A program made the translations under genes and the position numbers. Positions 687 to 15,735 of a stretch of 56,407 nucleotides of DNA are shown here, piece after piece. Under the pieces are notes generated by a model. That model made no database searches. It had not been told where the DNA came from and worked only from the letters and a program-made list of their open reading frames with translations. The first letter of the stretch is position 1. Every line of letters starts with the position of its first letter. Origin of the DNA: Deltaproteobacteria bacterium HGW-Deltaproteobacteria-3 (GTDB taxonomy: Bacteria; Desulfobacterota; Desulfobulbia; Desulfobulbales; Desulfurivibrionaceae); NCBI GenBank assembly GCA_002841785.1, contig PHAW01000010.1, positions 1 to 56,407 of the forward strand. Reading direction: 5' to 3'.

Positions 687-763
687 GCGCCCGTAGCTCA
701 GCTGGATAGAGTGTCGGACTACGAATCCGCAGGTCGCACGTTCGAATCGTGCCGGGCGCACCA
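687..763 (+). tRNA. tRNA-Arg (anticodon ACG)
   Basis: A complete cloverleaf folds from 687 to 763. The acceptor arm GCGCCCG pairs with CGGGCGC and the 3' CCA is encoded. The D-stem is GCTC/GAGT, the anticodon loop CTACGAA reads ACG, and the T-loop is TTCGAAT. Its 3' part from 715 is repeated at 15686-15735, so this tRNA is the attachment site of the island. Integration keeps the tRNA intact because the incoming element supplies an identical 3' end. The terminator that probably belonged to this tRNA now lies 15 kb away at 15743-15777. Confidence 0.95.
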
Positions 764-764
764 G
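715..764 (+). repeat. attL core: 50-bp direct repeat inside tRNA-Arg
   Basis: This block starts in the tRNA anticodon stem (CGGACTACG) and ends one base after CCA. It is identical over 50 bp to 15686-15735; the flanking bases (T714 versus A15685, C765 versus A15736) differ. Crossover by the integrase inside this block explains the duplication. Confidence 0.93.
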
Positions 765-842: not shown

Positions 843-1835
843 ATGGCAACTATCAGAAAGCGAGGCCCTTACCAATGGGAAGCCCGCATACGAAAAAAAG
901 GCCATCCCACTCAATCAAAAACGCATGAAACAAAAAAGGAAGCCGAGGACTGGGCTCGCGACCTTGAATCGGAAATGAGAAAAGGGATCTTCGTTTGCAG
1001 AAAAGAAGCAGAAAACACCACCTTGGCCGAAGCGCTGGATCGCTACGCCAGGGAAATTACTGCTGGCAAGAAAGGGGCGCCGCAAGAATTGCGACGCATC
1101 GAAGCCTGGAAGCGCCATCCCCTTTCAAATAGATTTCTAGCCACTCTCCGGGGCGTTGATTTCGCGCAATATCGTGATGACCGGCAGACGCAAGGTAAAT
1201 CCCCCAGCACAATCAGGCTTGAGCTCGCCATAATATCCCACCTGTTCAACGTCGCCCACAAGGAATGGGGGATGGAGAGCCTCACAAACCCTGTGCAGGC
1301 GATCCGGTTGCCTCCGGCCGGGAGAGCGAGAGACCGACGGTTGCAAGAAGACGAAGAGACGCGGATACTCGACGCAGCCAAGACATCGAAAAGCAATGAG
1401 ATTGCGAGCATCATTGTTCTTGCCTTGGAAACCGGAGCCCGCCGGTCAGAACTTGTTGATATGCAGTGGGAGCATATCAACTTGGCTACCCGGACATGGC
1501 ATATTCCAGAAACAAAAAACGGGGATACCCGGACAGTACCGTTGTCATCGCGGGCGAAAGCGACTTTGCAAGGACTGCTCCGCCGGATCGACGGGCGGGT
1601 GTGGGCAATGAGACACGCCGACGGTATCACCCAGGCCTTTGATCGAGTGTGCAAGCGGGCCGGGATCGAAGGGCTCCGCTTCCACGATCTGCGCCATGAA
1701 GCCACAAGCCGCTTTTTTGAACTCGGCACCCTGGGAATAATGGAAGTGTCCAGCATCACAGGTCACAAGGATCTCAAAATGTTGAAGCGGTATACCCACC
1801 TCCGGGCCGAGGATCTGGCGGCGAAGCTGGGATAA
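843..1835 (+). CDS. int: Tyrosine recombinase integrase of the island
   Basis: This 330-aa protein has the phage/island integrase architecture: an N-terminal AP2-like arm-binding segment (WEARIRKKG, residues ~10-20), a SAM-like core-binding domain (~60-160), and a catalytic domain. Catalytic residues are visible: R200/R201 in ETGARRSEL, HxxR at H281-R284 (HDLRHEA), H308 in GHKD, and nucleophile Y317 in RYTHL. The frame is open upstream through the tRNA. The ATG at 843 is chosen because it starts the domain and follows GGAGAC at a good distance. It lies 79 bp inside attL and should catalyse recombination between the 50-bp att repeats. All key residues are present, so it is probably active. Confidence 0.93.
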   Translation: MATIRKRGPYQWEARIRKKGHPTQSKTHETKKEAEDWARDLESEMRKGIFVCRKEAENTTLAEALDRYAREITAGKKGAPQELRRIEAWKRHPLSNRFLATLRGVDFAQYRDDRQTQGKSPSTIRLELAIISHLFNVAHKEWGMESLTNPVQAIRLPPAGRARDRRLQEDEETRILDAAKTSKSNEIASIIVLALETGARRSELVDMQWEHINLATRTWHIPETKNGDTRTVPLSSRAKATLQGLLRRIDGRVWAMRHADGITQAFDRVCKRAGIEGLRFHDLRHEATSRFFELGTLGIMEVSSITGHKDLKMLKRYTHLRAEDLAAKLG

Positions 1836-1876
1836 AACTAGACTTGCGTCAGGCGACAGGCTGTGTTATATTTTTG

Positions 1877-1882
1877 TATAAT
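1877..1882 (+). promoter_or_regulatory. Candidate -10 box for the toxin-antitoxin operon
   Basis: A perfect TATAAT lies 19 bp before the antitoxin start. The -35 region is poor (a GACAGG at about 16 bp spacing), as in promoters that the antitoxin itself represses. No clear operator dyad is seen. Confidence 0.4.
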
Positions 1883-1901
1883 TCACGCAAGGAGATGCGC
1901 T

Positions 1902-2156
1902 ATGCACACAACCTGTTTACGTAAAGTTGGCGGCTCGGTGATGTTGGCGGTTCCGCCCGCCATCCTTGAAATACTGCATTTGCAGGCAGGGACCACGGTC
2001 GGAGTTGCTATCGATGACGGTCGCCTGGTGGTTGAACCCCAACGCCATCGCTATACGCTGAAAGAACTTCTAGCCCAATGTGATCCCAAAGCGAAAATCA
2101 GTGACGAAGATCAGCAATGGATTGATGCGAAACTGGTCGGAGGAGAGTTGCTTTGA
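1902..2156 (+). CDS. ChpS/PemI-like antitoxin (AbrB/MazE fold)
   Basis: This is an 84-aa protein. The N-terminal ~50 residues have the AbrB/MazE swapped-hairpin pattern: LRKVGGSVMLAVPPAIL, then a LHLQAGTTVGVAIDDGRLVVEP strand series split by a loop. The acidic and hydrophobic C-terminal tail should wrap around the toxin. The ATG at 1902 is preceded by AAGGAGA with 6-nt spacing and excludes the longer GTG start at 1863. Its stop overlaps the toxin start (TTGA), so the two are translationally coupled. It probably neutralises the toxin and represses the operon, stabilising the island. Confidence 0.88.
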   Translation: MHTTCLRKVGGSVMLAVPPAILEILHLQAGTTVGVAIDDGRLVVEPQRHRYTLKELLAQCDPKAKISDEDQQWIDAKLVGGELL

Positions 2157-2485
2157 AACGAGGGGAAATCTATCTAGTGTCGCTTGACCCCACTTCCGGT
2201 CGCGAGCAACAAGGTACACGGCCTGTTTTGGTCGTTTCACCAACCCCTTTCAATCGGGTGACAAGAATCCCGATAGTGTTGCCGATTACAAGCGGAGGCG
2301 ATTTTGCCAGAACGAAAGGCTTTGCCGTTTCACTGTCGGGAGCTGGCACGGAAACAACAGGCGTTATCCGTTGCGATCAACCCCGTGCCCTTGATCTGAG
2401 CGCACGGCATGCACGCAAACTTGAAAGCGTTCCGGATCCGATCATGAATGAAGTGCTTGCCAAATTGATTCCGATTTTTGAATAA
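2153..2485 (+). CDS. ChpB/PemK/MazF-family endoribonuclease toxin
   Basis: This 110-aa protein has the full MazF/PemK pattern: KRGEIYLVSLDP at the start, GTRPVLVVSPTPFN, and the late RCDQPRALDL motif, with the usual length. Known members cut mRNA at short specific sequences. The start is TTG at 2153, overlapping the antitoxin stop, with a GGAGGAGAG Shine-Dalgarno inside the antitoxin gene. The low-efficiency start and coupling fit the need for antitoxin excess. The pair sits beside the integrase, as addiction modules in islands often do. A terminator follows. Confidence 0.9.
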   Translation: MKRGEIYLVSLDPTSGREQQGTRPVLVVSPTPFNRVTRIPIVLPITSGGDFARTKGFAVSLSGAGTETTGVIRCDQPRALDLSARHARKLESVPDPIMNEVLAKLIPIFE

Positions 2486-2896: not shown

Positions 2897-4753
2897 ATGC
2901 GTAGCTTCCTCTCGAAACTGTTCGGAAAGGCAAAGATGACAGCGCCCCAGGAATCCGTGGGACTGGAGATCCTCGCCCCCGATTCGAAGAGAACATCCGG
3001 CAGGCGGGAGCCGCCGACCGAGCTCGACTGGTCGCAGGCCGAGTACATCCCTCTGCCACCGTCTCCTCCGACTTGGGAGGTCGACGGGCGCAACGAGTTC
3101 CACCGCGAGTATAACGACCCGGTGATTGGCCCGGTGATTCAGGCCGGATTCAAGAACCAACACACCAAGGTCGTGAAGCTCGCCGCCGGTCTTTCCCCAG
3201 AGCAGCGGCAGGGACGACAAGTCGGAGAGGTCATCGCCAAGGCATACACTAAGCTCATTATCCAGCGGACGAAGTCTGGACAAATAGCTGCGGCGGCGAA
3301 GCAGTGCGTCGAGATGTTCGAGATGGTACCCGGTCATATCCAGGACGTCGATCATCGGCGCTTCAACCGAATCCTTGCCCAGATGGACAAGGAAGGGAAG
3401 AAGCACGACTACACCCCCGTCGATGCTGCCAGCCCGTCATCACTGCCGCTGTTCACGGCGTCGGATGACGCCCCTTGGTCTCTCGCTGGCGAGGGAAAGC
3501 TGCAGGGCGATGAGCGGCCCGAACTCGCCTTCGACATCGCCGCCGTCGATGTGGCGGGCACTTGGCTACTCGATCGCTCCGGTTCCAGCGTGGGCCGTCC
3601 GGAAGTGAAGAGCGTGCTTCGCCGAATCGACCGGGGTGGTCTCCTCGTCGGCGAGAAAGCTCTGTGCCATGACGCCTATCGTACGGGGGCTGGCACCGTC
3701 GGTTCCAGCATCGCGATCATGGACTCCAGCGGGGTTCTCCACGTCTACGACGCAGGGCTGAACATCTTAGCCGAGACCAATCTTCGCGAGGATACTCGCG
3801 TCGTCGATCACTTCCGGACCATCGACACGAACTACTGGGGGGAATTCAAATCCCAGGTGCGAGCCGTAGATGTTGCTCCCGAGGGGGACCAGTACCTCTT
3901 CACGCTCGCCGACGAGGCATGGTGCTGCACAACCTCTGGCCACGCGGTGTGGGGCGTCGTGATGCCCCTTAAAGAAGGTTGGACGCGTGTCGTAGGCCGT
4001 AGCGAGCGCTTCGGAGTTGGTCAAGAGGTCGAGGAAGCGCTTCGGCTTTTCGGTCTGTCCCTGCCCGTCAACCCTGCAGACATCAAGCGGAAGTACCGTG
4101 CATTGGCGTTCGCCCACCACCCCGACCGTAACGTCGGCGATGCGTCCGCTGCCGAGAAGATGAAGGCTCTGAACAAAGCGTTCGAGGTTCTGACCGGTGT
4201 CGATCCGAACACGCTCGGGTTCGAGGAGTCCGATGTCACGTATTTTGCCCGGACGACTCCCGACCACGTCATCGAGGCGGGGGGCTTCCGGCTGGAGATC
4301 ACGATAACCGGGGGGACGCCTCAAGATTGGGTCTACGCGGCCAGCTTTGCTACCGCTAACCGTGGGGCCTACCTGGCAACTTACTCCGGCAAGGTTATTC
4401 TAGTCTCACAGGAGGGGCGGCCCGTGGTTGTGTACGACATTGGGACATGCCCGAACGAAATCGTCAACGTCGGTCGGTACACGTACTTCCTTACGCCCAC
4501 ACGACTCTACGTCGTCGAAGATAAGGTGAAACTCGCGGCATTCCTTGACGTCTTCCAGCAGGGCCGACTGCTCGTCTCGCAGACCGGGTTTGGGTTGCTC
4601 ACGAGCAAGCGACTCCAGTGGTTCACGGAGGCCGGTGTGAAGGTCGGTGAGCTAACGGCGAGGGACCCAATCCGGGCGATTTACGCAGCCGATGGCGGTG
4701 CAGTCGTGCAGACCCGACAGCATCGAGTCGAAGTGCGGGGGCTCGCGATGTGA
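2897..4753 (+). CDS. J-domain (DnaJ-like) protein with predicted beta-rich flanks, island cargo
   Basis: This is a 618-aa protein of unknown overall family. The N-terminal ~180 residues are largely helical (EQRQGRQVGEVIAKAYTKLI). Residues ~195-375 and ~440-618 look like repeated beta strands of propeller type (SSGVLHVYDAGLN, GRPVVVYDIGT, TRLYVVEDKV). Between them sits a compact J domain at ~380-435 with the diagnostic HPD at 408-410 (AHHPDRN). J domains recruit and stimulate DnaK-type Hsp70. A J domain inserted between two propeller-like regions is unusual. There is no signal peptide, so it should be cytosolic. The gene stands alone between the TA pair and the mobilisation block on the opposite strand, a cargo position. 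It may be an anti-phage or conflict protein, but nothing in the sequence proves this. Confidence 0.75.
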   Translation: MRSFLSKLFGKAKMTAPQESVGLEILAPDSKRTSGRREPPTELDWSQAEYIPLPPSPPTWEVDGRNEFHREYNDPVIGPVIQAGFKNQHTKVVKLAAGLSPEQRQGRQVGEVIAKAYTKLIIQRTKSGQIAAAAKQCVEMFEMVPGHIQDVDHRRFNRILAQMDKEGKKHDYTPVDAASPSSLPLFTASDDAPWSLAGEGKLQGDERPELAFDIAAVDVAGTWLLDRSGSSVGRPEVKSVLRRIDRGGLLVGEKALCHDAYRTGAGTVGSSIAIMDSSGVLHVYDAGLNILAETNLREDTRVVDHFRTIDTNYWGEFKSQVRAVDVAPEGDQYLFTLADEAWCCTTSGHAVWGVVMPLKEGWTRVVGRSERFGVGQEVEEALRLFGLSLPVNPADIKRKYRALAFAHHPDRNVGDASAAEKMKALNKAFEVLTGVDPNTLGFEESDVTYFARTTPDHVIEAGGFRLEITITGGTPQDWVYAASFATANRGAYLATYSGKVILVSQEGRPVVVYDIGTCPNEIVNVGRYTYFLTPTRLYVVEDKVKLAAFLDVFQQGRLLVSQTGFGLLTSKRLQWFTEAGVKVGELTARDPIRAIYAADGGAVVQTRQHRVEVRGLAM

Positions 4754-5041: not shown

Positions 5042-5374
5042 TCAGGACTTCCGCCCCGCCGGACCAGCCTCGGCACAGTGCAATGCTTCGTGCAAGCTCT
5101 CGAAACGCCCCCACAATGTTGGCCGATCCCAGGCACCACCATCCAGACAATATACACGATAGAACACGCCATCAGGCCATTGTTCGAGATCTTCAATTTC
5201 GAGCTGAAGGTAAGGCCTCCCCCACCACTTGCTCAGTTGCTCCGCCGAGCGTTTTTGGTTATCCGTACACCCAAAATTTTCCGGTAATTCAGGATCGATC
5301 AGCACATTACCGAAACGGTTTTCAGCCAAAAACTTGGTTTTGCTTTTGCCTTTGCCGATGACGAAAGTCTTCAT
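5042..5374 (-). CDS. Island hypothetical protein, 110 aa
   Basis: This soluble protein is not recognised. It has a basic N-terminus (MKTFVIGKGKSKTK) and a Trp/Tyr-rich centre (KWWGRPYLQLEIEDLEQWPDG), with no signal peptide or membrane segment. The ATG at 5374 overlaps the stop of the preceding 47-aa gene as ATGA, which fixes this start over the longer frame. It is the last gene of the leftward island operon. Its function is unknown; the coupling suggests it is made together with the small membrane protein before it. Confidence 0.6.
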   Translation of the reverse strand: MKTFVIGKGKSKTKFLAENRFGNVLIDPELPENFGCTDNQKRSAEQLSKWWGRPYLQLEIEDLEQWPDGVFYRVYCLDGGAWDRPTLWGRFESLHEALHCAEAGPAGRKS

Positions 5375-5514
5375 GGCCGAGATTCCACCAGAGGCCGGCA
5401 GCCAAAGGACCAGGGCACCAGAACAGCCAGGAATAACCATTCCAAGATCGCGGCATCCTGGTCGGGATCCCCGGTCACTATCAGCTTCATTTCCTCAAAT
5501 TTTTTCATTTCCAT
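5371..5514 (-). CDS. 47-aa small membrane-associated protein
   Basis: ATG at 5514 has an excellent Shine-Dalgarno (GGGAGGAAG). The protein has a charged N-terminus (MEMKKFEEMK) and one hydrophobic segment, AILEWLFLAVLVPWSF, long enough to dip into or span the membrane. Its stop overlaps the next start (ATGA), and it begins 15 bp after the upstream gene ends. There is no family match. It may be a small T4SS-accessory or exclusion-type peptide, but that is speculation. Confidence 0.6.
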   Translation of the reverse strand: MEMKKFEEMKLIVTGDPDQDAAILEWLFLAVLVPWSFGCRPLVESRP

Positions 5515-5529: not shown

Positions 5530-6744
5530 TTATTTTTTGGAACTGGGCGGCACACTGGTCGCCGCTCGGTATTGGGAATCGATCTGGCCACCATTGGCGC
5601 GGACCCCTTCGGAGAGGATCCCGGCCAGCAACATTTCTTGCCGCTCAAGTCGCAACTCCTGGCGATGCTGCATCTCGAGCATCCTGGCCAGCATGAAGGC
5701 TACTTCCCGGTTCACGGCCGCCGGCGAAGCCGCCAACATCTGCGAATACCACTCGGGGTTGTTGGCTCGACGGTCCACCTCGGCCTGCTGCAGCAGGAAA
5801 TGACTCGCCCGTCCGGATTTGATTGCGTCCTCTACTCCCTGGGGAACAGAGACTCCTCCCATCTTTGCCCAGATATTTTTGATATGCTGGGCGAGTGACA
5901 CGCCGTCCACCTCGGCCGGCGCCCGCCAGGCCATGGCTTCGGTAAAGACCGAGGCAGCAAGGCCCAACTTTGCTTGTTCTGCGAGCCGCATGGCCTCATA
6001 ACCGCGTCCCTGATCGGTATTCTCAAGATTCCCCGGCAAAACCGGCCGGGGCACCGCCTGCGAGACATTGCTGGCATAGGCCCTGGCGGCCTCCGCCTGC
6101 TGCTGGCTGAAAACATAGCTCTGGTTGCCCGGCAGGCCGGCGCCGTGCGTGAGGGATCGTGGATCAATGTCCGCGTCGGGCATCGAGGATGTGGAGCTGC
6201 AGCGCTTCTGCGCCACGTCGGCAGGCCCGCAGTACTTTTCCCGGTGCCGCGAGTAGGTGGTGTAGGTGGCCGAGGCCGGGGAGCTGGTGTTCCGCCCGCG
6301 CATCCGGAACCCGGCATGCTCGGTCGCAGCAGTCCGGGCCGCGCTTCTGGCCGCTTCCCCTGAAATCGCGGCAGATGATAGAGAGTCACAGGGATTCGGG
6401 GGCAAAATGCCATAATCCTGCTGCGCCCGGGCAGCGTTTTCCGAGCCAGCCAGGGCCACGCGCTTTTTGTCGCGGTTGTCGGCTACTTCTCCCGCAACAC
6501 GGGTCGCCTCCCCTTTGATAATATCCGCGCTGGTAGCAATTGCAACGGAAACACTTTGCTGCATATCCGTTATTCTCCCGCCAATCGCATCTCCCATTTT
6601 AGAGGCATTATCAATGATATATTCTTTTGCCATGGTCAGCGCAGGGATAATAATCGCGGCATCTCCAGCGGCCATGGCGCTATTCGATGGAGACAACATA
6701 GCGAGAAGCGCTATGCCCGCAGAGTATTTTCTGAAACTTTTCAT
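5530..6744 (-). CDS. Exported protein of the mobilisation region, 404 aa
   Basis: The protein starts with a clear Sec signal peptide (MKSFRKYSAGIALLAML, cleavage near SAMAAG). The mature part is long and helical, rich in Ala, Gln and Arg, with heptad-like stretches (REVAFMLARMLEMQHRQELRLERQ near the C-terminus). It has a few Cys (NPCDSL, KYCGP, KRCSS) that could form disulfides. The ATG at 6744 overlaps the previous stop as ATGA, which sets the start over a longer frame. Size, export and position suggest a periplasmic T4SS-associated factor, but no named family is recognised. Confidence 0.65.
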   Translation of the reverse strand: MKSFRKYSAGIALLAMLSPSNSAMAAGDAAIIIPALTMAKEYIIDNASKMGDAIGGRITDMQQSVSVAIATSADIIKGEATRVAGEVADNRDKKRVALAGSENAARAQQDYGILPPNPCDSLSSAAISGEAARSAARTAATEHAGFRMRGRNTSSPASATYTTYSRHREKYCGPADVAQKRCSSTSSMPDADIDPRSLTHGAGLPGNQSYVFSQQQAEAARAYASNVSQAVPRPVLPGNLENTDQGRGYEAMRLAEQAKLGLAASVFTEAMAWRAPAEVDGVSLAQHIKNIWAKMGGVSVPQGVEDAIKSGRASHFLLQQAEVDRRANNPEWYSQMLAASPAAVNREVAFMLARMLEMQHRQELRLERQEMLLAGILSEGVRANGGQIDSQYRAATSVPPSSKK

Positions 6745-7034
6745 TTTTTGGGCCTCTTCAATGTGATCATTTTTTCTTCGAATTTCGCCCCAGGCTGCCC
6801 ATTGCTCAAGAAACACTCACATTGGCATGTGCGAGAAAACGAGTCAGCAGTAAGCGGCGCGAGTTCCTCCGGAAAACATTTGCAGTCACATTCGGTAACG
6901 CCCGCCTGGTCGGTAACAAAAATGGTCATTTCATCATCGGCTTTGAGCTGTCCGGCCATAACCTGGCTACCGGATCCCAAGAGCATCATTCCCGCCACCG
7001 CCATCGCCATCATTGCAACGATTGCCTTTTTCAT
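6741..7034 (-). CDS. Exported 97-aa Cys-rich protein
   Basis: A signal peptide (MKKAIVAMMAMAVAGMMLL, then SQVMAG) precedes a short mature protein of about 70 residues. It has six Cys in two similar triplets, CDCKC and CQCEC, about 25 residues apart. In the periplasm these could bind metal or form a disulfide knot. The basic tail ends KRPKK. It overlaps both neighbours by ATGA, so it belongs to one operon with the 190-aa and 404-aa exported proteins. The family is unknown. Confidence 0.7.
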   Translation of the reverse strand: MKKAIVAMMAMAVAGMMLLGSGSQVMAGQLKADDEMTIFVTDQAGVTECDCKCFPEELAPLTADSFSRTCQCECFLSNGQPGAKFEEKMITLKRPKK

Positions 7035-7603
7035 TGGAAAATTCCCCGGATGTAGTTTGGAATAGCGTTCAGAACGCCGTCACCGCTTGATTTCTTCACG
7101 GTCACGTCCGCCGCCGGCGTACTGACCGTGTTCGGCGACTGATAAAGATTGCCGAGCCGGTTGGCGCCGGGCAATCCGACCTGCGCACCACCGATGTTGC
7201 CCGGCAGCATGATCGATTGCGACATGGATGCACCGGCCTGGTTATAGATTGAGTCGATGCCGGTACATGCCACCTTCGAAACGCGATCCAGCGCCTGTTT
7301 TGTAAGATCGCTGATCGATGGGACGCCAATCATGGACCCGACTTTCACGTCCTTGTACTTCTCCAGGCAGTTGGAAGAGCTGGAATTGGAAGCGCCGGGC
7401 TGGCCCGACTGTCCAGGGGAGCCCCCTTCAAGGGTCGCAGCCGATGATTCGGAAAAATCTTTTATGGTCCGATCTCGGGAGTTTTGGGCCATCTGTTGCG
7501 CCCGGGCCATCAGGTCCGGCCGGACCGACTCACAATCAGCAGCCAGAGCCGGGCCGCCGGCAAAGAGTGCCGCCGTGGTTATGGTGAGTATGGTTTTTTT
7601 CAT
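7031..7603 (-). CDS. Exported protein, 190 aa, conjugation-associated hypothetical
   Basis: The Sec signal peptide is MKKTILTITTAALFAGGPALA, and cleavage leaves ADCESV. The mature protein has a helical N-terminus, a Gly/Ser/Gln-rich linker (GGSPGQSGQPGASNSSSS) and a C-terminal helical region with Cys residues that could pair (C24, C79, C113 region). AGGAGCGGC gives a ribosome site before ATG 7603, and ATGA overlaps exist on both sides. It is probably periplasmic and part of the same assembly as its two exported neighbours. No function is assigned. Confidence 0.65.
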   Translation of the reverse strand: MKKTILTITTAALFAGGPALAADCESVRPDLMARAQQMAQNSRDRTIKDFSESSAATLEGGSPGQSGQPGASNSSSSNCLEKYKDVKVGSMIGVPSISDLTKQALDRVSKVACTGIDSIYNQAGASMSQSIMLPGNIGGAQVGLPGANRLGNLYQSPNTVSTPAADVTVKKSSGDGVLNAIPNYIRGIFQ

Positions 7604-7779
7604 GCCGCTCCTCCTATGATTTTGCGGCAGCGGGCGCAGGTTACCGCCGCCTTATCCGTGGTGCCCTGGTAATCCATTCGCCTTTTGGTGCTGCCGATGC
7701 AGCCGATGGCGCAAGCAGGCAGCACGCCTTTTTCCGGGTGCAGCGCCGCGTTGTAATGCATCTTTTTTGGCTTTTTCAT
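7600..7779 (-). CDS. 59-aa zinc-ribbon-like small protein
   Basis: This basic protein starts MKKPKKMHYN. It has CAIGC and CARC motifs about 25 residues apart, a likely zinc ribbon. Short proteins with a similar CxxC near a VTC-x-x-C end are common in phage and plasmid DNA, but their job is unknown. It is cytosolic. The start at 7779 is set by the ATGA overlap with the preceding gene; its own stop overlaps the next start. Confidence 0.6.
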   Translation of the reverse strand: MKKPKKMHYNAALHPEKGVLPACAIGCIGSTKRRMDYQGTTDKAAVTCARCRKIIGGAA

Positions 7780-8213
7780 ACTGCTCCCTCCCTGGCACGG
7801 ACAAATTGCAGCTCTGCCTTGGCAAGCAGATATTTGCGCGAGATCCAGGCCACCAGGCCGGCGGTCATAAGCAACATTACCGGCCCAGGGAAAACCCAGG
7901 CATTGGCAAAGAGTACGCAACAGCCGATCAGGATAAACTTGAGTCTTTGAGCACGAAGGGCGAGGATTGGCCGACTTAGGCACAGGGAATCAGAATCAGG
8001 ATCCAGCAAATCAAGCTGTTTTGCTTTTTTCCATCCTCGCCACCCGGCCCAGGCCAGGGCAGCCCCTGCCAGCGTCACGGAGAAGTAGAAAAATGGGTTT
8101 ACCTCCCGGCCGGCAGCCGTCCGGACCACAAAATTCCAGGGGGCGGTGATGAAGAAATTGGCGCCGGTGATGATCGCCGGCAAAGAAAAGAAATAGAGGG
8201 TTTCGGGTTTCAT
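7776..8213 (-). CDS. Island membrane protein, 145 aa
   Basis: About four hydrophobic segments are visible: TLYFFSLPAIITGANFFI; FYFSVTLAGAALAWAGW; LKFILIGCCVLFANAWVF; and GPVMLLMTAGLVAWI. A charged cytosolic loop (RGWKKAKQLDLLDPDSD) lies between the second and third. It overlaps the previous and next genes by ATGA. This small inner-membrane protein in a mobilisation operon could support channel assembly or entry exclusion. No family is recognised. Confidence 0.6.
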   Translation of the reverse strand: MKPETLYFFSLPAIITGANFFITAPWNFVVRTAAGREVNPFFYFSVTLAGAALAWAGWRGWKKAKQLDLLDPDSDSLCLSRPILALRAQRLKFILIGCCVLFANAWVFPGPVMLLMTAGLVAWISRKYLLAKAELQFVRAREGAV

Positions 8214-8830: not shown

Positions 8831-10969
8831 TCACATCCCGTGCGACGAACCTTTCCTCTTCTGCTGCTGTGGCCAGTTTTTTTCGACCTCCGGCGGCTCG
8901 GCCTCCGGCGTCGGTGGATGATCGCTTATCGCTACCGCTGCACCTGGGGCCGGGGGAGCGGTCGGGTTATGATCTCCTCGATCTGCCGCCGCTCCTTCGC
9001 CGATGCTCTCTCCCACATCCCGCGAAACGTCTCCCCCGCCTGGAGCGTCATCGGGTCCGGCCTGCTCCGCTGCCAGGCAAGCCCGAAAAGACCGCCCGAA
9101 ATCGCCGAGCTCAACAATACTGACAGGAGGCACATGACGAAGTACCGGCGATACGTCGGGATCTGCGACAGATTCCGACGTATCGCTGCCCGCTCGCTGG
9201 CCACGGCTTCCGACATCTGCGTCGCCGACTGCCGCAGGAATTTCTCGCCCTCCCGCCGCAAGTCCTTCGCGGCGGCCGTCATCTGTGCTGCCGCCGCTCT
9301 GGATTCCTCTGTCCCGGCCCGCAACCGCTCCACCAGGGCCGCCAGGGACTCCATGGCTTTGCGGGTGATCATCGCGTGATCCGTCGCCTTCCCGAGTCGC
9401 TGCCGCAGCGGCTCGGTCTGCGTCACGATTTCCCGGGCCGCCTGGGTCGGCAGAGCCCGCAGCAACCGCAATATTTCTTCCCCCTGCTCCGCCGTCAGCG
9501 GCATGGGCGGCAGTGTCTCCGCCGGCGGCCGGAGCATCTCTTCGACCGGCTCCACCAATTTCAGGGGTTGCTGTGGCTGCTCGACTATCCCCTGGGGTTC
9601 CGGATCTATCAGGAACTCGATTTCCTCTTTCATGTTCTGAATCAGGCTCATGTGTTACCTCCTTCTTTGCTGGCAACGTATAACTGGGTTGTATCTCGTT
9701 TTGCTCGACCGGCTGGGCCGGCCCGATGGAATCCGGTACCGGCACACCGCCATGCTTTTCTCGCCAGGCAGTCAGCTCGGCCAGGTCCTCGGTGGTCGGC
9801 TCATACCCCTTGATTTCCAGGCCCATCTTAGAGCCGGCCAGCCATGCCTTCTGCCGGAACTCATCTTCTCCATGGACCTGCAGGGGAGAACCGAAACTTT
9901 CCGCCGCTGTCAGGAGCGCCGCCCTGATCGCTACATCCCGCCGCGCGAGCACGGTGATTTGGTCACCTTCCAGTCGAAAAGCGGTTCGTTCCGGGCGATT
10001 TTTCCAGCACCAAGTGCCATCTTCCTGGCGGATAAAATACCGGTCACGTTCTTTGGCCGGGTCAATCTGGCCCCGGCCGCGATGGATCTTCGGGGTATCT
10101 GTGGCCTCCGGCCCGCCAGGGCCGATGCTGCCTGCCTCCCGCGACGCGGCGGCCTCTTCGCGCAGCTTGGCGATCAGCTCGGCGTCACGGTCGGGATCAA
10201 AGGAGGTATCCTCGGCGATCCGCTGCCACTTATAGGCTTTCCCAAGGCTGGAACCGGAAAAAGGGTCTCCACCTCTCAATCGAAAAGAGATGCCCCCCAC
10301 CTGGCCGGATTTGCCGTTGGGGATGATCTCTATCCCGTTCCTGTGGCATCTGGCCACGAACGTGGCAAAATCAGGGCAGTCTTTCCTGGCGGCCGTGATT
10401 TTCGTTTGTAGAACCAAACGATCCGGCACCTTACCCGTGCGCCGGCGCCGGCCCACTTCGGCTTTTGTCAGTGATTTTTGCTCGCCGCCTTCATCGAATC
10501 CGGGGGTGAGTTTGAGGCCGAACGCCTTTTCCATGTCTTGTGTGACCTGGATGGCTTGGCGGACATCATTTTTCCCATGCCAAACCGATGCATCCAGGGC
10601 CACCCGGGAAACAACCAGGTGGATGTGATCATGCTCTGTGTCAATGTGGCGCGCGCAGTGCCACTGCCGGGCATCAGGATCGAGCCCCATGCGGGTCAGA
10701 AAGTCCCGCGCGATCTCCGCCCAACGCTCGTCAGACAGCTTCTCTCCCGGCGGCAGGGACAGAGAGCAATGCCAGACCGGCTTTTTGATGTCGGGCCGTA
10801 GTTTGCGGCTGACGGCGAACTCCCGTGCCAAGGCACGCGGATCGTTACCCAGGACATTTCCGGCGCCGATGACCGGCACGGCACGGCCCGGATGATTATC
10901 TTCACCAGGACCATGCACATATTTCAGCAGCCCATAAAATCCGCCACCACGGCTAATTTTGGCTTTCAT
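8831..10969 (-). CDS. MobP-type relaxase with LPD7-like domain, 712 aa
   Basis: The N-terminal relaxase domain starts KAKISRGGGFYGLLKYV, where Y12 or Y17 is the candidate nicking Tyr. It has motif II-like WHCSLSLPPGE and the metal-binding motif III HIDTEHDHIHLVV at ~108-120. Residues ~300-390 (YFIRQEDGTWCW ... AAESFGSPLQVHG) resemble the LPD7 domain found in large plasmid relaxases. It should nick oriT and lead the DNA strand into a recipient. From about residue 440 the protein becomes Gly/Ala/Asp/Arg-rich and disordered, exactly where a second gene (8932-9651) is encoded in the +1 frame. ATG 10969 is preferred over 10987 because GAGGA lies before it; it overlaps mobC by 17 bp. Confidence 0.9.
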   Translation of the reverse strand: MKAKISRGGGFYGLLKYVHGPGEDNHPGRAVPVIGAGNVLGNDPRALAREFAVSRKLRPDIKKPVWHCSLSLPPGEKLSDERWAEIARDFLTRMGLDPDARQWHCARHIDTEHDHIHLVVSRVALDASVWHGKNDVRQAIQVTQDMEKAFGLKLTPGFDEGGEQKSLTKAEVGRRRRTGKVPDRLVLQTKITAARKDCPDFATFVARCHRNGIEIIPNGKSGQVGGISFRLRGGDPFSGSSLGKAYKWQRIAEDTSFDPDRDAELIAKLREEAAASREAGSIGPGGPEATDTPKIHRGRGQIDPAKERDRYFIRQEDGTWCWKNRPERTAFRLEGDQITVLARRDVAIRAALLTAAESFGSPLQVHGEDEFRQKAWLAGSKMGLEIKGYEPTTEDLAELTAWREKHGGVPVPDSIGPAQPVEQNEIQPSYTLPAKKEVTHEPDSEHERGNRVPDRSGTPGDSRAATATPEIGGAGRRDAPAAGGDTAAHAADGGAGGRNIAVAAGSADPGGPGNRDADRAAAAATREGDGSRDDHPQSHGVPGGPGGAVAGRDRGIQSGGSTDDGRREGLAAGGREIPAAVGDADVGSRGQRAGSDTSESVADPDVSPVLRHVPPVSIVELGDFGRSFRACLAAEQAGPDDAPGGGDVSRDVGESIGEGAAADRGDHNPTAPPAPGAAVAISDHPPTPEAEPPEVEKNWPQQQKRKGSSHGM
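8932..9651 (-). CDS. MobB/MbeB-like coiled-coil membrane protein overprinted on the relaxase gene
   Basis: This 239-aa gene lies wholly within the relaxase gene in the +1 frame. ATG 9651 has a perfect AAGGAGGT Shine-Dalgarno with 6-nt spacing. The protein is well formed. It has an acidic, Pro-rich N-terminus, long amphipathic helices (~55-165, for example ESLAALVERLRAGTEESRAA), one transmembrane segment at ~171-193 (FVMCLLSVLLSSAISGGLFG), and a basic tail. ColE1 mbeB and RSF1010 mobB also overlap their relaxase genes and encode helical, membrane-linked relaxosome proteins. The relaxase reading of this DNA is low-complexity, so this frame is likely the constrained one. It probably tethers or stabilises the relaxosome at the membrane. 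Confidence 0.8.
   Translation of the reverse strand: MSLIQNMKEEIEFLIDPEPQGIVEQPQQPLKLVEPVEEMLRPPAETLPPMPLTAEQGEEILRLLRALPTQAAREIVTQTEPLRQRLGKATDHAMITRKAMESLAALVERLRAGTEESRAAAAQMTAAAKDLRREGEKFLRQSATQMSEAVASERAAIRRNLSQIPTYRRYFVMCLLSVLLSSAISGGLFGLAWQRSRPDPMTLQAGETFRGMWERASAKERRQIEEIITRPLPRPQVQR
9672..9686 (-). promoter_or_regulatory. Repeat CAGTTATACGTTGCC upstream of mobB
   Basis: This 15-bp word sits just before the mobB ribosome site, inside the relaxase gene. It is identical to 11430-11444 upstream of mobC; a shorter copy, GTTATACGTTCC, lies at 11386-11397. Recurrence before two mob genes suggests a binding site for a mob-region regulator or relaxosome protein. Confidence 0.4.
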
Positions 10970-11366
10970 CGACGTCCTCGGAATCATAAAGGGATGGCAT
11001 AAAAAGATTCTGTCCCAACAGACGACGCCGAAACTCGGCCAGGGCTTGGGATACTTCCTCGATTTCCGGCGCTAATTCCGCCCCTTTCTCGACCAAATTC
11101 AGGCGATGGGCGATTTGGTTCAAATTTCCGGCCGTCCGAGCGAAATCCGCCCAAACCTCGCGGTTAAGCGGCGGCACCACTATCCGCCGAGGAGCTGATT
11201 TGCCGAGAGCTGCAGCCCTTAGAAAAGAAGGGATCAATTCGGTGCCGCCGGCGCGATCGGCGAGCTTATCCAGCTCTTGATCGCGCACAAAAACGGTAAT
11301 CCTGTGAGACCGTTTTACTGCTGGGGCCAAGGGCGCCGGGCCTCTTTTTCTCTTTTCTGTTTTCAT
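10953..11366 (-). CDS. mobC: MobC/NikA-like relaxosome accessory protein, 137 aa
   Basis: A basic start (MKTEKRKRGPAP) leads to a ribbon-helix-helix-like region (HRITVFVRDQELDKLADRAG). Next comes the signature GNLNQIAHRLN of the MobC family, then a helical C-terminus. MobC-type proteins bind oriT and help open the nick site for the relaxase. ATG 11366 has AGGAGG at good spacing. The stop lies inside the relaxase start region, so the two are coupled. Placement right after the oriT-like hairpin is the usual mob order. Confidence 0.85.
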   Translation of the reverse strand: MKTEKRKRGPAPLAPAVKRSHRITVFVRDQELDKLADRAGGTELIPSFLRAAALGKSAPRRIVVPPLNREVWADFARTAGNLNQIAHRLNLVEKGAELAPEIEEVSQALAEFRRRLLGQNLFMPSLYDSEDVDESQN

Positions 11367-11429
11367 GATTTTCCTCCTTTCCACAGGAACGTATAACAGG
11401 CTGCAAGCATGTTGATCACCACCAAGACC

Positions 11430-11444
11430 GGCAACGTATAACTG
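11430..11444 (-). promoter_or_regulatory. Repeat CAGTTATACGTTGCC upstream of mobC
   Basis: Identical to 9672-9686, with a partial copy 33 bp nearer mobC (GTTATACGTTCC, 11386-11397). The two copies straddle the likely mobC promoter, fitting an operator or an accessory oriT site. Confidence 0.4.
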
Positions 11445-11503
11445 AATGCAACCTGATTTAGAGGGGCAAGCGAAGCGCCGCCCCTGCCTTTCTCCCCCTG
11501 TCC

Positions 11504-11558
11504 AGGGCAGGGGGCAAGGGAACTCGGTGCAACCGAGTTATACCTTGCTCCCTGCCCT
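11504..11558. other. 55-bp near-perfect inverted repeat: oriT candidate or terminator
   Basis: The left arm (11504-11528) and right arm (11532-11558) pair as 16 bp with one G-T, a small 1x3 internal loop, then 8 bp (AACTCGGT/ACCGAGTT) closing a GCA triloop. The hairpin lies between the traY stop and mobC, where relaxases of this type usually have oriT. It is followed by no T run in either direction, which argues against a simple terminator. The exact nick site is not identifiable by eye. Confidence 0.5.
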
Positions 11559-11573
11559 AACTATGCGATCAGG

Positions 11574-13613
11574 TCATCGCGAGCGATGAATTGTGTCACC
11601 ACCTGGGCCACCGACAGCTTTGATCGCATTTTTTGCCTGCGCGGCTCCTCCAACTTCCATGCCGTGTCCCATTTGATCGCCGCCATGGTAAAGAGTATTG
11701 ATCGTGCGTTCATCCTCCCCGCCGCCAATTTTGGCTACGTGACCCCCAGCCCATGCCAGAACCTCATTGGGCAAATGATGGATCAACGAGAAACACTTGG
11801 AAATTAGCAAATAAGACAGATAGCAAAAGATGATCAAGGTGACGAAGAACATCCCGATTGAGGCCCACCCGGAAAAGGAAAAGGAGGAAGATCCATACAA
11901 AACGGATAAGGAATATTTAAGGAATTCTCCCAGGATATTCATGAGCAACCAGCCGGAGACCAGGCCGAATACCATCAAAACCGGACGAAACAGGACATTC
12001 AGGAAAAACATATAGCCATGAGCGGTTTTTTGCCCCAATCCTTCCCCTTCGGTCTCCAGATGGGCCAACATCCACAGCGACGCACCTACCACGGCCTCTA
12101 TACACACGATAAAATAGCTGATGACCCCGGAAAACCAGAGGATGTAGGGCAAAAAAGGCAGCAGGTAAGCCATGGCTAGGCCGATTATCAGTAAAATTTT
12201 AAAAATCGCGGGCAATCCCAATACCTGCAGGACACCACCCCCGCCAGCGGCCGTCAGGCCGCCAGCAACACCCAAGCCTATCCCCCCTGCACCGCTCAAG
12301 GCATAGCCTAACCGGGTAATCCCGATCATCAAATCACCTTCACCGCCTGTCATGAAATCCATCGCGGATCTGACTCCAGCAGATTGCATGCTATCGCCAA
12401 AAATTTTAGGAAAATCAAAAGTCACAATATTTTTGACTGTTTTTAACCAGCCAGACATCACCCCGGCTCCTACAGAAATACCCTGCTCAATCAGTCCTCC
12501 CTCCCGAGGAGAAAGGGGTAATATCTCCGCAGATGCGGCATCCATGATATCTCGATTGACGGAAGCTATTTTAACGAAAATGACCCCAGAATATAGCCAC
12601 GACGAACCCTCCTTTTTCATGAAATCAGCAAAACCATGTTTGCTTTTCATGCTGGCGTCGGCCAGTGCTGTACTTATTTGTTGAGTGTATCGATTTTTGA
12701 TATCTGCTAAATCTACCGGGTCTGGGGTCAGGCCCTCCAGCGCGAGAGCCTGGGAATGAGGATGGAGGGAAGCACTCATGGCCACCAGGGCCTGAGCTTG
12801 GGCTTTGTTTACTGCCTGATGATCGAACGGCGGCAGCGCTGCCATGCCCTGTGGCCCATCGAAAATGCCGGGGGAATTGGACTTTGGATATATTTGCACC
12901 CCCCCGCAAGAATCTGGAAAATACCCTCCCTCGGTGGCTCCAAAAACCAACTTTGAAATGTTGCCCTGTTGGATTAAAGTCCCTTTCTCTGGGAACAAAA
13001 TTGATGTTTTCCCGCTTTGCTCAGCATCTTGTTTTTGCTGAATATTATTTACGATTGAGCATACTTGAGCGGCAACCAAGGCCTCCAAAGCATCATCCCT
13101 GCTTGCAGCTTCAGGTGTGACAAGAACGGCACTTTCTACATGGTCTAGCATGTGCTTCCACCCGGCATCCCAGGTAATGTTGCCTATCCCTATCCCCACA
13201 ACCATCCCTAGGATCATCAAAGCTTGGGGAAAAGACCACCCGGCAAAGATGGGGACCAGGCCGAAAATGCCATAGATTGTCCTGATGGGGTACCAGATAG
13301 AGGAATGCCGCTGGCCAAGGAACTTCCCTTCGACTGCGGTATGCAGGACCCCAGAAACAACGCCATACAGCACCATCAACACGGCCACAGAGAAGACGGC
13401 CATATTGAAAATTACGAACATTTCAGAAAGAGGAGAAGCTGTGCCAGTGAGGATGCCAGGTATGGGGCCGAAAATCTTCCCGAGCATCTCGAAAGTCGGG
13501 TCGCCTTCTGCCTTGCTCAGATAATCGCTGATGGCCGCCTGGGCGGAGCCAGGGCGCAGCAGGACAAGCAACGCGGCCAAATTGATTCGAAACATTTTTT
13601 TGTTAAAAAGCAT
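11574..13613 (-). CDS. traY: DotA/TraY-family inner-membrane protein, 679 aa
   Basis: A signal-like N-terminus (FRINLAALLVLLRPGSAQA) is followed by several transmembrane segments around 55-150 (FVIFNMAVFSVAVLMVLYGVV; FPQALMILGMVVGIGIGN). A long periplasmic region comes next, then a cluster of four to five membrane helices at ~440-620. The C-terminal motif IHHLPNEVLAWAGGHV is typical of DotA and TraY. In IncI plasmids TraY is part of the transfer channel and is the target of entry exclusion; in Legionella DotA is a core Dot/Icm component. ATG 13613 is chosen over TTG 13655 because of AGGTGG and the signal peptide. It is the only recognisable channel gene on the island. Confidence 0.85.
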   Translation of the reverse strand: MLFNKKMFRINLAALLVLLRPGSAQAAISDYLSKAEGDPTFEMLGKIFGPIPGILTGTASPLSEMFVIFNMAVFSVAVLMVLYGVVSGVLHTAVEGKFLGQRHSSIWYPIRTIYGIFGLVPIFAGWSFPQALMILGMVVGIGIGNITWDAGWKHMLDHVESAVLVTPEAASRDDALEALVAAQVCSIVNNIQQKQDAEQSGKTSILFPEKGTLIQQGNISKLVFGATEGGYFPDSCGGVQIYPKSNSPGIFDGPQGMAALPPFDHQAVNKAQAQALVAMSASLHPHSQALALEGLTPDPVDLADIKNRYTQQISTALADASMKSKHGFADFMKKEGSSWLYSGVIFVKIASVNRDIMDAASAEILPLSPREGGLIEQGISVGAGVMSGWLKTVKNIVTFDFPKIFGDSMQSAGVRSAMDFMTGGEGDLMIGITRLGYALSGAGGIGLGVAGGLTAAGGGGVLQVLGLPAIFKILLIIGLAMAYLLPFLPYILWFSGVISYFIVCIEAVVGASLWMLAHLETEGEGLGQKTAHGYMFFLNVLFRPVLMVFGLVSGWLLMNILGEFLKYSLSVLYGSSSFSFSGWASIGMFFVTLIIFCYLSYLLISKCFSLIHHLPNEVLAWAGGHVAKIGGGEDERTINTLYHGGDQMGHGMEVGGAAQAKNAIKAVGGPGGDTIHRSR

Positions 13614-13651: not shown

Positions 13652-14392
13652 TCAACGCCGACCCCTGTGACTTTCCCAGTCAAAGTTGACCAATATCCCA
13701 TCGTTTTCACGGAGACGATCATATGCTGCACCCCCGAGATAGGTGCTTATTTCCGCGGGGAGCAGGTTGGATATGATGATCGTAGGCCGCATCGCCCGGT
13801 ATCGAGCATCGATCACTTGGAATTGCGTAATTTTTTCAGCCTCAGAGCCATATTGGCGGCCCACCTCATCCAAGATCAGCAAGTTTACTTCGGCGAAACG
13901 CTCGATGACTTCCGCCTCTGTTTCCTGCGATTGGCGGTCCCAGGTAGCCCGAATACGCTGGATTATCTCTGCCACAGTGAGTAATAGGGAGGAATATCCT
14001 TGTGCGCTGACCTGCCGGGCTATGGCGCATGCCAAGTGGTTTTTGCCGGTGCCTATATTTCCTCTTAGAACCATGCATACACCCCTGGTGTGCATCTGCT
14101 GGAAATCATCGGCATAGCTTCTACAGGCATCTAAGGCTGTCTGTTGCTTTGCTGATTCCACTGCAAAGTTGTCGAAGCTGCAATTTGCAAAACGCGGCGG
14201 GATTGCCATGCGTTTCAATAGTGTCTGCAGTTGCGCGTCGCGGCGGCAAGCCGGGCAACCTATCGGCACCACCCCCTGCCACTCCTGCTGCTCCTGGTTG
14301 TACACGGACCGCAACCATGGACCGTGGGCCGGGCAGTCCTCGTAATATTTTTCCTCTGGGAGTTCATGGGGGTCAGATTCGCTCGACGACAT
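13652..14392 (-). CDS. DnaC/IstB-like helicase-loader ATPase, 246 aa
   Basis: The N-terminus has a zinc-binding pattern (DCPAHGPW ... GCPACRRD). An AAA+ core follows, with Walker A GNIGTGKNHLA, the GKNHL form used by DnaC, and Walker B NLLILDEVG. It continues with a sensor-like IIISNL and an arginine-rich end (AAYDRLREN). Such proteins load the replicative helicase at an origin. ATG 14392 has GGAGGAACC before it and overlaps the end of the preceding O-like gene by 20 bp. With that gene it forms a phage lambda O/P-like replication pair. Confidence 0.88.
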   Translation of the reverse strand: MSSSESDPHELPEEKYYEDCPAHGPWLRSVYNQEQQEWQGVVPIGCPACRRDAQLQTLLKRMAIPPRFANCSFDNFAVESAKQQTALDACRSYADDFQQMHTRGVCMVLRGNIGTGKNHLACAIARQVSAQGYSSLLLTVAEIIQRIRATWDRQSQETEAEVIERFAEVNLLILDEVGRQYGSEAEKITQFQVIDARYRAMRPTIIISNLLPAEISTYLGGAAYDRLRENDGILVNFDWESHRGRR

Positions 14393-14882
14393 TTTTGGTT
14401 CCTCCGTTTTTATGCATGAGGTCAGAAGTATTTTTTGATGTAGTCTTTGATGTAGTCTTTGATATAGTTTGCCGGATTACGGCAAACTTGCCTGCCGGGT
14501 TACGGCAAACTTGTTTGCTGGAATTTCTTGTTTGCGGGATACCGGCATTCTGTTGATATTCTTGTAATTTTTTTTCCAAAACATTCAGGTCGAGGTGGTA
14601 CCACATCCGGGCCGGGACTCCACGTCTCTCCATTTTCAACAACCCACCTGTTGTTAAAATTTTCCGAGCAGTTTCTTGTTCTGAGCGATTTAAACCAAGT
14701 TCTTCATTCCAATCTGCCCCAGATTTGTACCACCATCCCACTTTTCCTCCCTTTCCCTTATCCACAATGCGCTGCCAGTAAAGCGCCTGCGACAACATAA
14801 TTGCCGCCACCGTGTTGCCAGTGATGGCCCGAAAAACGCGGTGATAGGCAATAGGAGGGGCCAGAAGATCGCTCAGCGCCAT
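14373..14882 (-). CDS. Phage/plasmid-type replication initiator-like wHTH protein, 169 aa
   Basis: The N-terminal ~120 residues form a winged-helix-like DNA-binding domain of the kind found in phage replication proteins (GNTVAAIMLSQALYWQRIVDKG, WWYKSGADWNEELGLNRSEQETARKIL, GGLLKMERRGVPARMWYHLD). The C-terminal ~50 residues are Lys/Thr/Ser/Asn-rich and low in structure because they are encoded by iteron-like repeats (14435-14513). Like lambda O, it is followed by a helicase loader and carries the repeats within its own gene. It starts at ATG 14882, 6 bp after the AlpA-like gene. Confidence 0.75.
   Translation of the reverse strand: MALSDLLAPPIAYHRVFRAITGNTVAAIMLSQALYWQRIVDKGKGGKVGWWYKSGADWNEELGLNRSEQETARKILTTGGLLKMERRGVPARMWYHLDLNVLEKKLQEYQQNAGIPQTRNSSKQVCRNPAGKFAVIRQTISKTTSKTTSKNTSDLMHKNGGTKNVVERI
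14435..14513 (-). repeat. Iteron-like repeats inside the initiator gene: candidate replication origin
   Basis: Two 23-bp repeats at 14468-14490 and 14491-14513 share TACGGCAAACTTG; the first contains a perfect dyad GTTTGCCG-gatta-CGGCAAAC (14467-14487). Next to them are three copies of a 12-bp AT-rich unit, TTGATGTAGTCT (14435-14470). Iterons beside an AT-rich stretch inside an initiator gene match the layout of ori-lambda. Confidence 0.6.
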
Positions 14883-14888
14883 TTTTTT

Positions 14889-15164
14889 TTAGCCCTGCCT
14901 CAGTGGCTGGCGACTAGCTATCTGCTTGGCCTTGGGTGGCCGGCCAAGGAGACTGGTCGCTTCTTTTTTTATTGGTTTCCCTGCTAGGGTGGCCAACCAT
15001 TCCTCTACGTCCTGCTTCCTCCAGGCCCAGCGTCGCCCCAGGCGCAGCGGCGGCGGGATAGAAACAGGCCAATGACGCCTTTGGAGATGACTCCTGATAG
15101 ATGCCTCCGAGACAGCCAGAGCCCGCGCCAAATCCGAGATGTAAATCAATAATTGCTGTTGCAT
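14889..15164 (-). CDS. AlpA/excisionase-like HTH protein, 91 aa
   Basis: Residues ~8-60 form a MerR/AlpA-type winged helix: ISDLARALAVSEASIRSHLQ, then RLGRRWAWRKQDVEEWLATL. The last 30 residues form a basic tail. ATG 15164 has AGGAGG with proper spacing. Proteins of this type act as recombination-directionality factors or activators of island excision genes. Its place next to attR, and the inverted-repeat array upstream (15329-15369), fit that role. It heads the leftward replication/mobilisation operon. Confidence 0.8.
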   Translation of the reverse strand: MQQQLLIYISDLARALAVSEASIRSHLQRRHWPVSIPPPLRLGRRWAWRKQDVEEWLATLAGKPIKKEATSLLGRPPKAKQIASRQPLRQG

Positions 15165-15685: not shown

Positions 15686-15735
15686 CGGACTACGAATCCG
15701 CAGGTCGCACGTTCGAATCGTGCCGGGCGCACCAG
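15686..15735 (+). repeat. attR core: displaced 3' fragment of tRNA-Arg
   Basis: These 50 bp are identical to 715-764. They represent the original chromosomal 3' end of tRNA-Arg left behind after integration. The fragment lacks the 5' half, so it is not a tRNA gene. Confidence 0.93.

Follow-up and report, generated by a model that had tools for sequence, protein, structure and literature searches.

A tRNA-Arg mobilizable element of Desulfurivibrionaceae carrying TraY and TraW homologues, a candidate translocation stalk for a helper T4BSS

Mobilizable islands that reshape the conjugation channel of a helper have been described for other types of machine. In SGI1, an island-borne VirB6-type subunit (TraG) and its partner subunits substitute for those of the helper. 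SGI1 swaps out TraN, TraH and TraG of IncC, and its TraG is needed for transfer into IncC-bearing cells; TraG together with TraH also boosts transfer above that of the helper, an effect separable from exclusion (PMC5389848). Two further islands, GISul2 and the IncP island, each supply a TrbJ (VirB5) and a TrbL (VirB6), according to a review (Guedon 2017, PMC5704250). GISul2, of MPF_T type, also carries an exclusion-protein homologue of a helper and has no relaxase of its own. The IncP island, found in Burkholderia glumae and its relatives (work of Yoshii et al., covered by that review), is portrayed there as an integrative mobilizable element (IME) that encodes a MOBP relaxase and relaxosome proteins of its own and, of the helper machine, only TrbJ and TrbL; it also has an extra small protein gene, a replication gene and an antitoxin, and its probable helpers are IncP plasmids. 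On the donor side, exclusion is usually determined by VirB6-type subunits (PMC5389848, PMC5704250). In T4BSSs, TraY is the VirB6 equivalent and TraW the VirB5 equivalent, both forming stalk pentamers (PMC12624023), and the central protochannel of Dot/Icm is built from DotA and IcmX (PMC12857230).

The window analyzed here is a 56,407-nt stretch, contig PHAW01000010.1, of a 2.85-Mb genome in 388 contigs that is 85% complete. It carries an island unit of 14,971 bp, flanked by perfect 50-bp direct repeats of the tRNA-Arg(ACG) 3' end (Table 1). The unit has its own integrase and att repeats, a relaxase and relaxosome and a putative oriT, and lacks a complete T4SS; judged from its sequence, it is most likely an IME, one that itself encodes integrase, relaxosome and replication functions. 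The relaxase, mobC and mobB that an earlier note on this DNA had listed are all present, as a MOBP/LPD7 relaxase, a NikA-like/MobC protein and a MobB-like ORF, and the full-size DotA/TraY homologue that it described is indeed an intact full-length gene, with matches to TIGR04346 and to solved DotA. The 618-aa DnaJ-domain cargo protein was not found in the sister islands described below, and the 169-aa replication-type protein had no match to any family; two tandem 23-nt repeats (87% identical) lie within its gene, at 14470-14515.

Table 1. Features of the window island, its sister islands and a shared cargo gene
Feature	Position	Strand	Remarks
attL	715..764	.	3' half of tRNA-Arg(ACG), 50-bp perfect direct repeat
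Tyrosine integrase	897..1835	+	adjoins attL; same-place homologue 85% identical in G010 island, 55% in G016
mazE-mazF toxin-antitoxin pair	1863..2485	+	PemK/MazF
Cargo, 618-aa protein	2897..4753	+	DnaJ domain
Conserved 132-aa protein	5042..5440	-	after traW; in 4/4 islands
traW homologue	5530..6816	-	IcmX/VirB5-type; NF033888 and hhalign
97-aa protein	6741..7034	-	exported, Cys-rich
190-aa protein	7031..7603	-	secreted; related to a TraW-neighbour protein of T4BSS plasmids
Conserved 145-aa protein	7776..8213	-	two hydrophobic segments
Relaxase	8831..10987	-	MOBP with LPD7 domain; PF03432 E 1.3e-27, PF18821 E 8.7e-15
MobB-like protein	8932..9651	-	other frame of relaxase 3' end; one hydrophobic segment
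Relaxosome accessory protein	10953..11384	-	NikA-like/MobC
Putative oriT	11440..11573	-	nested inverted repeats between traY and nikA
traY	11574..13613	-	DotA/VirB6-type; 679 aa from ATG 13613
Helicase-loader ATPase	13652..14392	-	DnaC/IstB-like
169-aa protein	14373..14882	-	replication-type by position
HTH protein	14889..15164	-	possible excisionase/regulator; HTH_17 E 2e-5, just below cut-off
attR	15686..15735	.	second copy of 50-bp repeat
G016 island	17,878 bp		between 48-bp repeats; tRNA-Arg(CCG)
G010 island	14,263 bp		between 50-bp repeats; tRNA-Arg(ACG)
G004 copy			split across two contigs
~110-aa protein (MAYLYEHC...)	L075:5237-5782, L009:17514-17849, L012:788-1120

The island TraY scored 306 bits against TIGR04346 DotA_TraY (curated cut-off 100; E 4.5e-91), and its profile matched the solved Legionella DotA chain 9ngy with an E of 1.3e-37, three conserved blocks being aligned; the protein has the conserved blocks of the family at both the N and the C terminus. 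Against the DotA equivalog model the score was 208, below the cut-off of 500. By these comparisons the protein is a relative and not a DotA of the Legionella type. The open frame extends beyond the assigned start, so that TTG at 13655 is a possible alternative to the ATG. A search of viral contigs found no relatives of TraY.

The earlier note had held that the island has no other recognisable channel core. This was wrong: a traW homologue had been overlooked, and so had the TraW-linked secreted protein of 190 aa. The island TraW, whose start is likely at 6744, giving 404 aa with a signal peptide, scored 55 bits (E 5.7e-15) against NF033888 conj_TraW, below the curated cut-off of 100. Profile-profile comparison (hhalign) gave 99.6% and an E of 1e-24 against T4BSS TraW proteins, the targets being TraW of IncI1, Martelella, Desulfosarcina, Nitratidesulfovibrio, Cupriavidus and Kozakia. 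Sequence search against solved structures gave no match to it. The profile-profile comparison supports its assignment as a distant TraW/IcmX homologue. In hhalign the 190-aa protein matched a TraW-neighbour protein of T4BSS plasmids at 94.3% (E 1e-7), with all reversed and shuffled controls below 0.5%. On T4BSS-bearing plasmids the genes of its relatives lie directly before TraW, or just before DotI-TraU; tblastn against plasmids gave no match, and the relation is detectable by profile only. The AlphaFold models of TraW and of the 190-aa protein, with mean pLDDT of 37 and 36, were set aside. TraY and TraW correspond to the VirB6/VirB5 stalk pair, and the island therefore has a stalk and not one wall protein alone.

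Other small proteins are conserved beside these genes. A TraX/IcmV identity was considered for the 145-aa protein and rejected, as the profile comparison was not significant. The 97-aa exported protein has the highest dN/dS in the block, about 0.45-0.55 between clades. It carries CxCxC motifs and evolves much faster than its neighbours, with about 53% identity between clades as compared with 79% for them.

The machine that builds and powers a T4BSS channel is missing. Using IncI1, Martelella and Desulfosarcina T4BSS proteins as core queries, we found no TraU/DotO, TraI, TraJ, TraK, DotG, DotH, DotI, TrbA or TrbC in the window island or its relatives; the same queries recovered most or all of the set in the positive controls G548, G377, Do28_1 and pDsulf-L2-2. 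The search thus upheld the earlier statement that the island has no coupling protein, TraU/DotO-type ATPase or pilus gene. The full set expected of an ICE or IncI-type conjugative element, including TraU, TraI/J and DotG/H/I, is not there, and no exclusion protein was recognised. The island proteins scanned matched T4BSS families and no MPF_T family.

The element differs in type from the known islands. SGI1 has MPF_F TraN/H/G, the trmE site and AcaCD control, whereas the present island has neither IncC TraN/TraH/TraG homologues nor the trmE site, is of T4BSS type and sits at tRNA-Arg; the subunits borne by SGI1 have been shown in experiments to aid transfer and to disable entry exclusion. Nor does it have the MPF_T pair TrbJ and TrbL of GISul2 and of the IncP island. 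Compared with the latter, with its IncP-type MPF_T subunits as described in the review, the island has T4BSS/MPF_I subunits (TraW, TraY), a Desulfurivibrionaceae host and a tRNA-Arg site; among T4BSS-type elements it takes the place that the IncP island has in MPF_T. Desulfosarcina ovata Do28_1 and Nitratidesulfovibrio vulgaris pDsulf-L2-2 likewise encode TraY and TraW, and Do28_1 also a member of the 190-aa family, but these two have the full machine. The known TraYs of complete T4BSSs in the phylum, theirs included, form a separate clade and are 24-27% identical to the island TraYs, and their compatibility with the island is therefore doubtful.

As in the IMEs that reshape a helper channel, only a few channel subunits are carried, a VirB6-type one among them, and they are intact and conserved. 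We consider it probable (roughly 0.6) that the island is an IME that inserts its own T4BSS stalk into a helper T4BSS. The island would supply a translocation-stalk module (TraY/DotA, TraW/IcmX and the TraW-linked secreted protein) but nothing of the machinery needed to assemble and energise the channel. Once a T4BSS conjugative element had arrived in the cell, the stalk pentamers of this helper would be displaced by island TraY and TraW or would face competition from them, and the hybrid channel would export the relaxase-bound DNA of the island. Both the assembly with a helper and a preference for the island's own DNA are what we infer. The identity of TraY and TraW, the complete island ends, the recurring subset, purifying selection, the confinement of traW to the genomes with the traY island, the closeness of traY, traW and the 97-aa protein between the window and G016 islands, the TraY of a second island (G083) and the SGI1, GISul2 and IncP-island precedents count for such remodelling. 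Counting against it are that no helper was found, that the known T4BSS TraYs of the phylum belong to a different clade, that no exclusion protein was recognised and that the G083 island has TraY with no detectable TraW. The earlier note had proposed that a helper receives a VirB6-type subunit from the island; anatomy and evolution support this, with the correction that the subunit is not a lone TraY.

In IncI systems, entry exclusion by ExcA is directed at the TraY of the donor. Because of this, we propose as a further and less certain step, plausible by analogy, that with a foreign TraY the island would gain access to cells already holding the helper as well. The 97-aa exported protein is a candidate specificity or exclusion factor. 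Alternatively, the stalk might be swapped for efficiency or substrate choice, through docking of the island's own relaxosome, and not to escape exclusion. The separable transfer boost by SGI1 TraG and TraH (PMC5389848) is in line with such a role, and a NikA-like/MOBP relaxosome suits an IncI-like partner; as VirB6-type subunits are the usual donor-side determinants of exclusion, we regard this account as somewhat unlikely, and the two functions may act together.

The element was also present in three further same-genus genomes, G016, G010 and G004, the relatives being MAGs labelled Desulfurivibrio, Deltaproteobacteria or Proteobacteria. Three complete islands bounded by att repeats (14.3, 15.0 and 17.9 kb) and one contig-split copy thus lie at two different tRNA-Arg genes, with an identical gene order in 4/4: traY, nikA, relaxase/mobB, 145 aa, 190 aa, 97 aa, traW and 132 aa. 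The traW family occurs in exactly four of the 243 genomes of the order, the same four that bear the traY island. The dN/dS values were 0.12-0.21 for traY, 0.11-0.26 for traW and 0.11-0.15 for the relaxase (the part outside the MobB overlap). The island genes are intact and under purifying selection, traY and traW at relaxase-like levels.

These data bear on the possibility that the island descends from a T4BSS ICE or plasmid stripped of most transfer genes, with traY and traW as functionless leftovers. Partial TraW-TraX-TraY blocks without a core are known, in G583, a Xanthomonas plasmid and Kozakia pKB14400_2. The earlier note had reasoned that remaining T4BSS genes in related islands would mark a degraded ICE; they were looked for, and the relatives that are complete between their att repeats contain only the subset seen in the window island, with no core fragments. 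Because the same subset is conserved, the island ends are complete and the genes are under purifying selection, we reject degradation as the main explanation and regard it as improbable.

Stalk remodelling of a T4BSS predicts a helper. Among the genomes of the order, TraU was found in 0/243 and DotI in 0/243, where the DotI search detects control records and the TraU model was built from its own controls. Metagenome bins often miss conjugative plasmids, and helper absence in the 243 genomes is therefore weak evidence; complete T4BSS plasmids occur elsewhere in the phylum. The same absence of a T4BSS could mean that the stalk belongs with a different class of helper T4SS or with some unknown system of these bacteria. 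The genus is without a detected VirB4-type ATPase too, and the matches of TraW and of the 190-aa protein are to T4BSS proteins, which makes this a long shot. That TraY and TraW are decoys poisoning a helper channel, as anti-conjugation or as host protection from a competing T4BSS plasmid, is very unlikely: pentameric parts could be dominant negative, and no T4BSS plasmid was seen in the 243 genomes, but their conserved grouping in a single block with relaxase, NikA and putative oriT argues for transfer and not for blockade.

The islands are mosaic in make-up. Between the window and G016, identity is close for traY (92%), traW (86%) and the 97-aa protein (94%), whereas genes in between are divergent (relaxase 67%, nikA 36%). 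The G004 traY is itself a mosaic, with a G010-like front joined to a G016-like end. Such mosaicism would fit independent evolution of stalk and relaxosome; the same pattern would arise if the middle segment had been replaced once. The MobB-like ORF and the overlapping relaxase are both kept in 4/4 islands, with MobB 72-86% identical. The putative oriT has outer repeats at 11504-11519/11543-11558 and inner repeats at 11521-11528/11532-11539, followed by a conserved GGGCGGCGCTTCGCTTGCCC; in G016 the inner arms are altered on both sides, and the folding z-score is -6.4. The MOBP nic core YATCCTGY does not occur in the island and no known nic core was recognised in the putative oriT. The nested inverted repeat, which follows traY, might be a terminator instead.

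Stalk remodelling would extend channel-remodelling mobilizable elements to the T4BSS class, which includes IncI plasmids and Legionella Dot/Icm, and to Desulfobacterota, with an element bearing the DotA-IcmX pair, for which a role as gate of the machine has recently been proposed. That islands of different channel types have acquired the same VirB5-VirB6 parts suggests the stalk to be a separable, identity-giving part of T4SSs, and unseen T4BSS helpers are predicted in these bacteria. More tentatively, and with the odds somewhat against it, there may be a T4BSS-specific class of IMEs whose TraY-TraW (DotA-IcmX) cassettes exchange the central protochannel of an IncI/Dot-type helper and so escape its ExcA-type exclusion; the VirB5-VirB6 stalk would then be what conjugation parasites of MPF_F, MPF_T and MPF_I systems have repeatedly targeted. 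The novelty suggested in the earlier note holds for the T4BSS version and not for the strategy, for which there are TrbJ/TrbL in GISul2 and the IncP island (PMC5704250) and TraG in SGI1 (PMC5389848). Our literature search, incomplete in coverage, found no earlier report of a T4BSS version, which is probably new, the stalk-carrying trick having been known for other machine types only.

TraY and TraW also occur elsewhere without a core. In G083, of the same order, an island-like stretch has a different integrase, MobC, a divergent relaxase and TraY; TraW was not detected in it. Its TraY groups with the island TraYs (clade support 100/99), apart from those of the complete T4BSSs of the phylum, and the stretch appears to be a second, unrelated mobilizable island that keeps a TraY of the same clade. 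In Kozakia baliensis DSM 14400 (L072, L078) a 12.6-kb TraW-TraY block lies on two plasmids, 97.8% identical, of which one is a complete T4BSS plasmid and the second, pKB14400_2, is without any T4BSS core; pKB14400_2 was rejected as an independent stalk-only plasmid, the block being a recent copy of the one on the complete plasmid of the same strain. Xanthomonas citri plasmid CP030167 (L032-L034), typed MPF_T, has a TraW-TraX-TraY block and no other T4BSS genes. G583 (L059:16005-19975) has TraY, a TraX-like protein and, by pattern, a TraW-like protein of 380 aa, with no core or mob genes nearby; T4BSS loci occur in its genus. A TraY end adjoins another mobilization-type ORF on contig C152 of G010, and another lies at a contig edge in G115, where it is adjoined by the ~110-aa protein (MAYLYEHC...) that is also cargo in the G016 and G010 islands.
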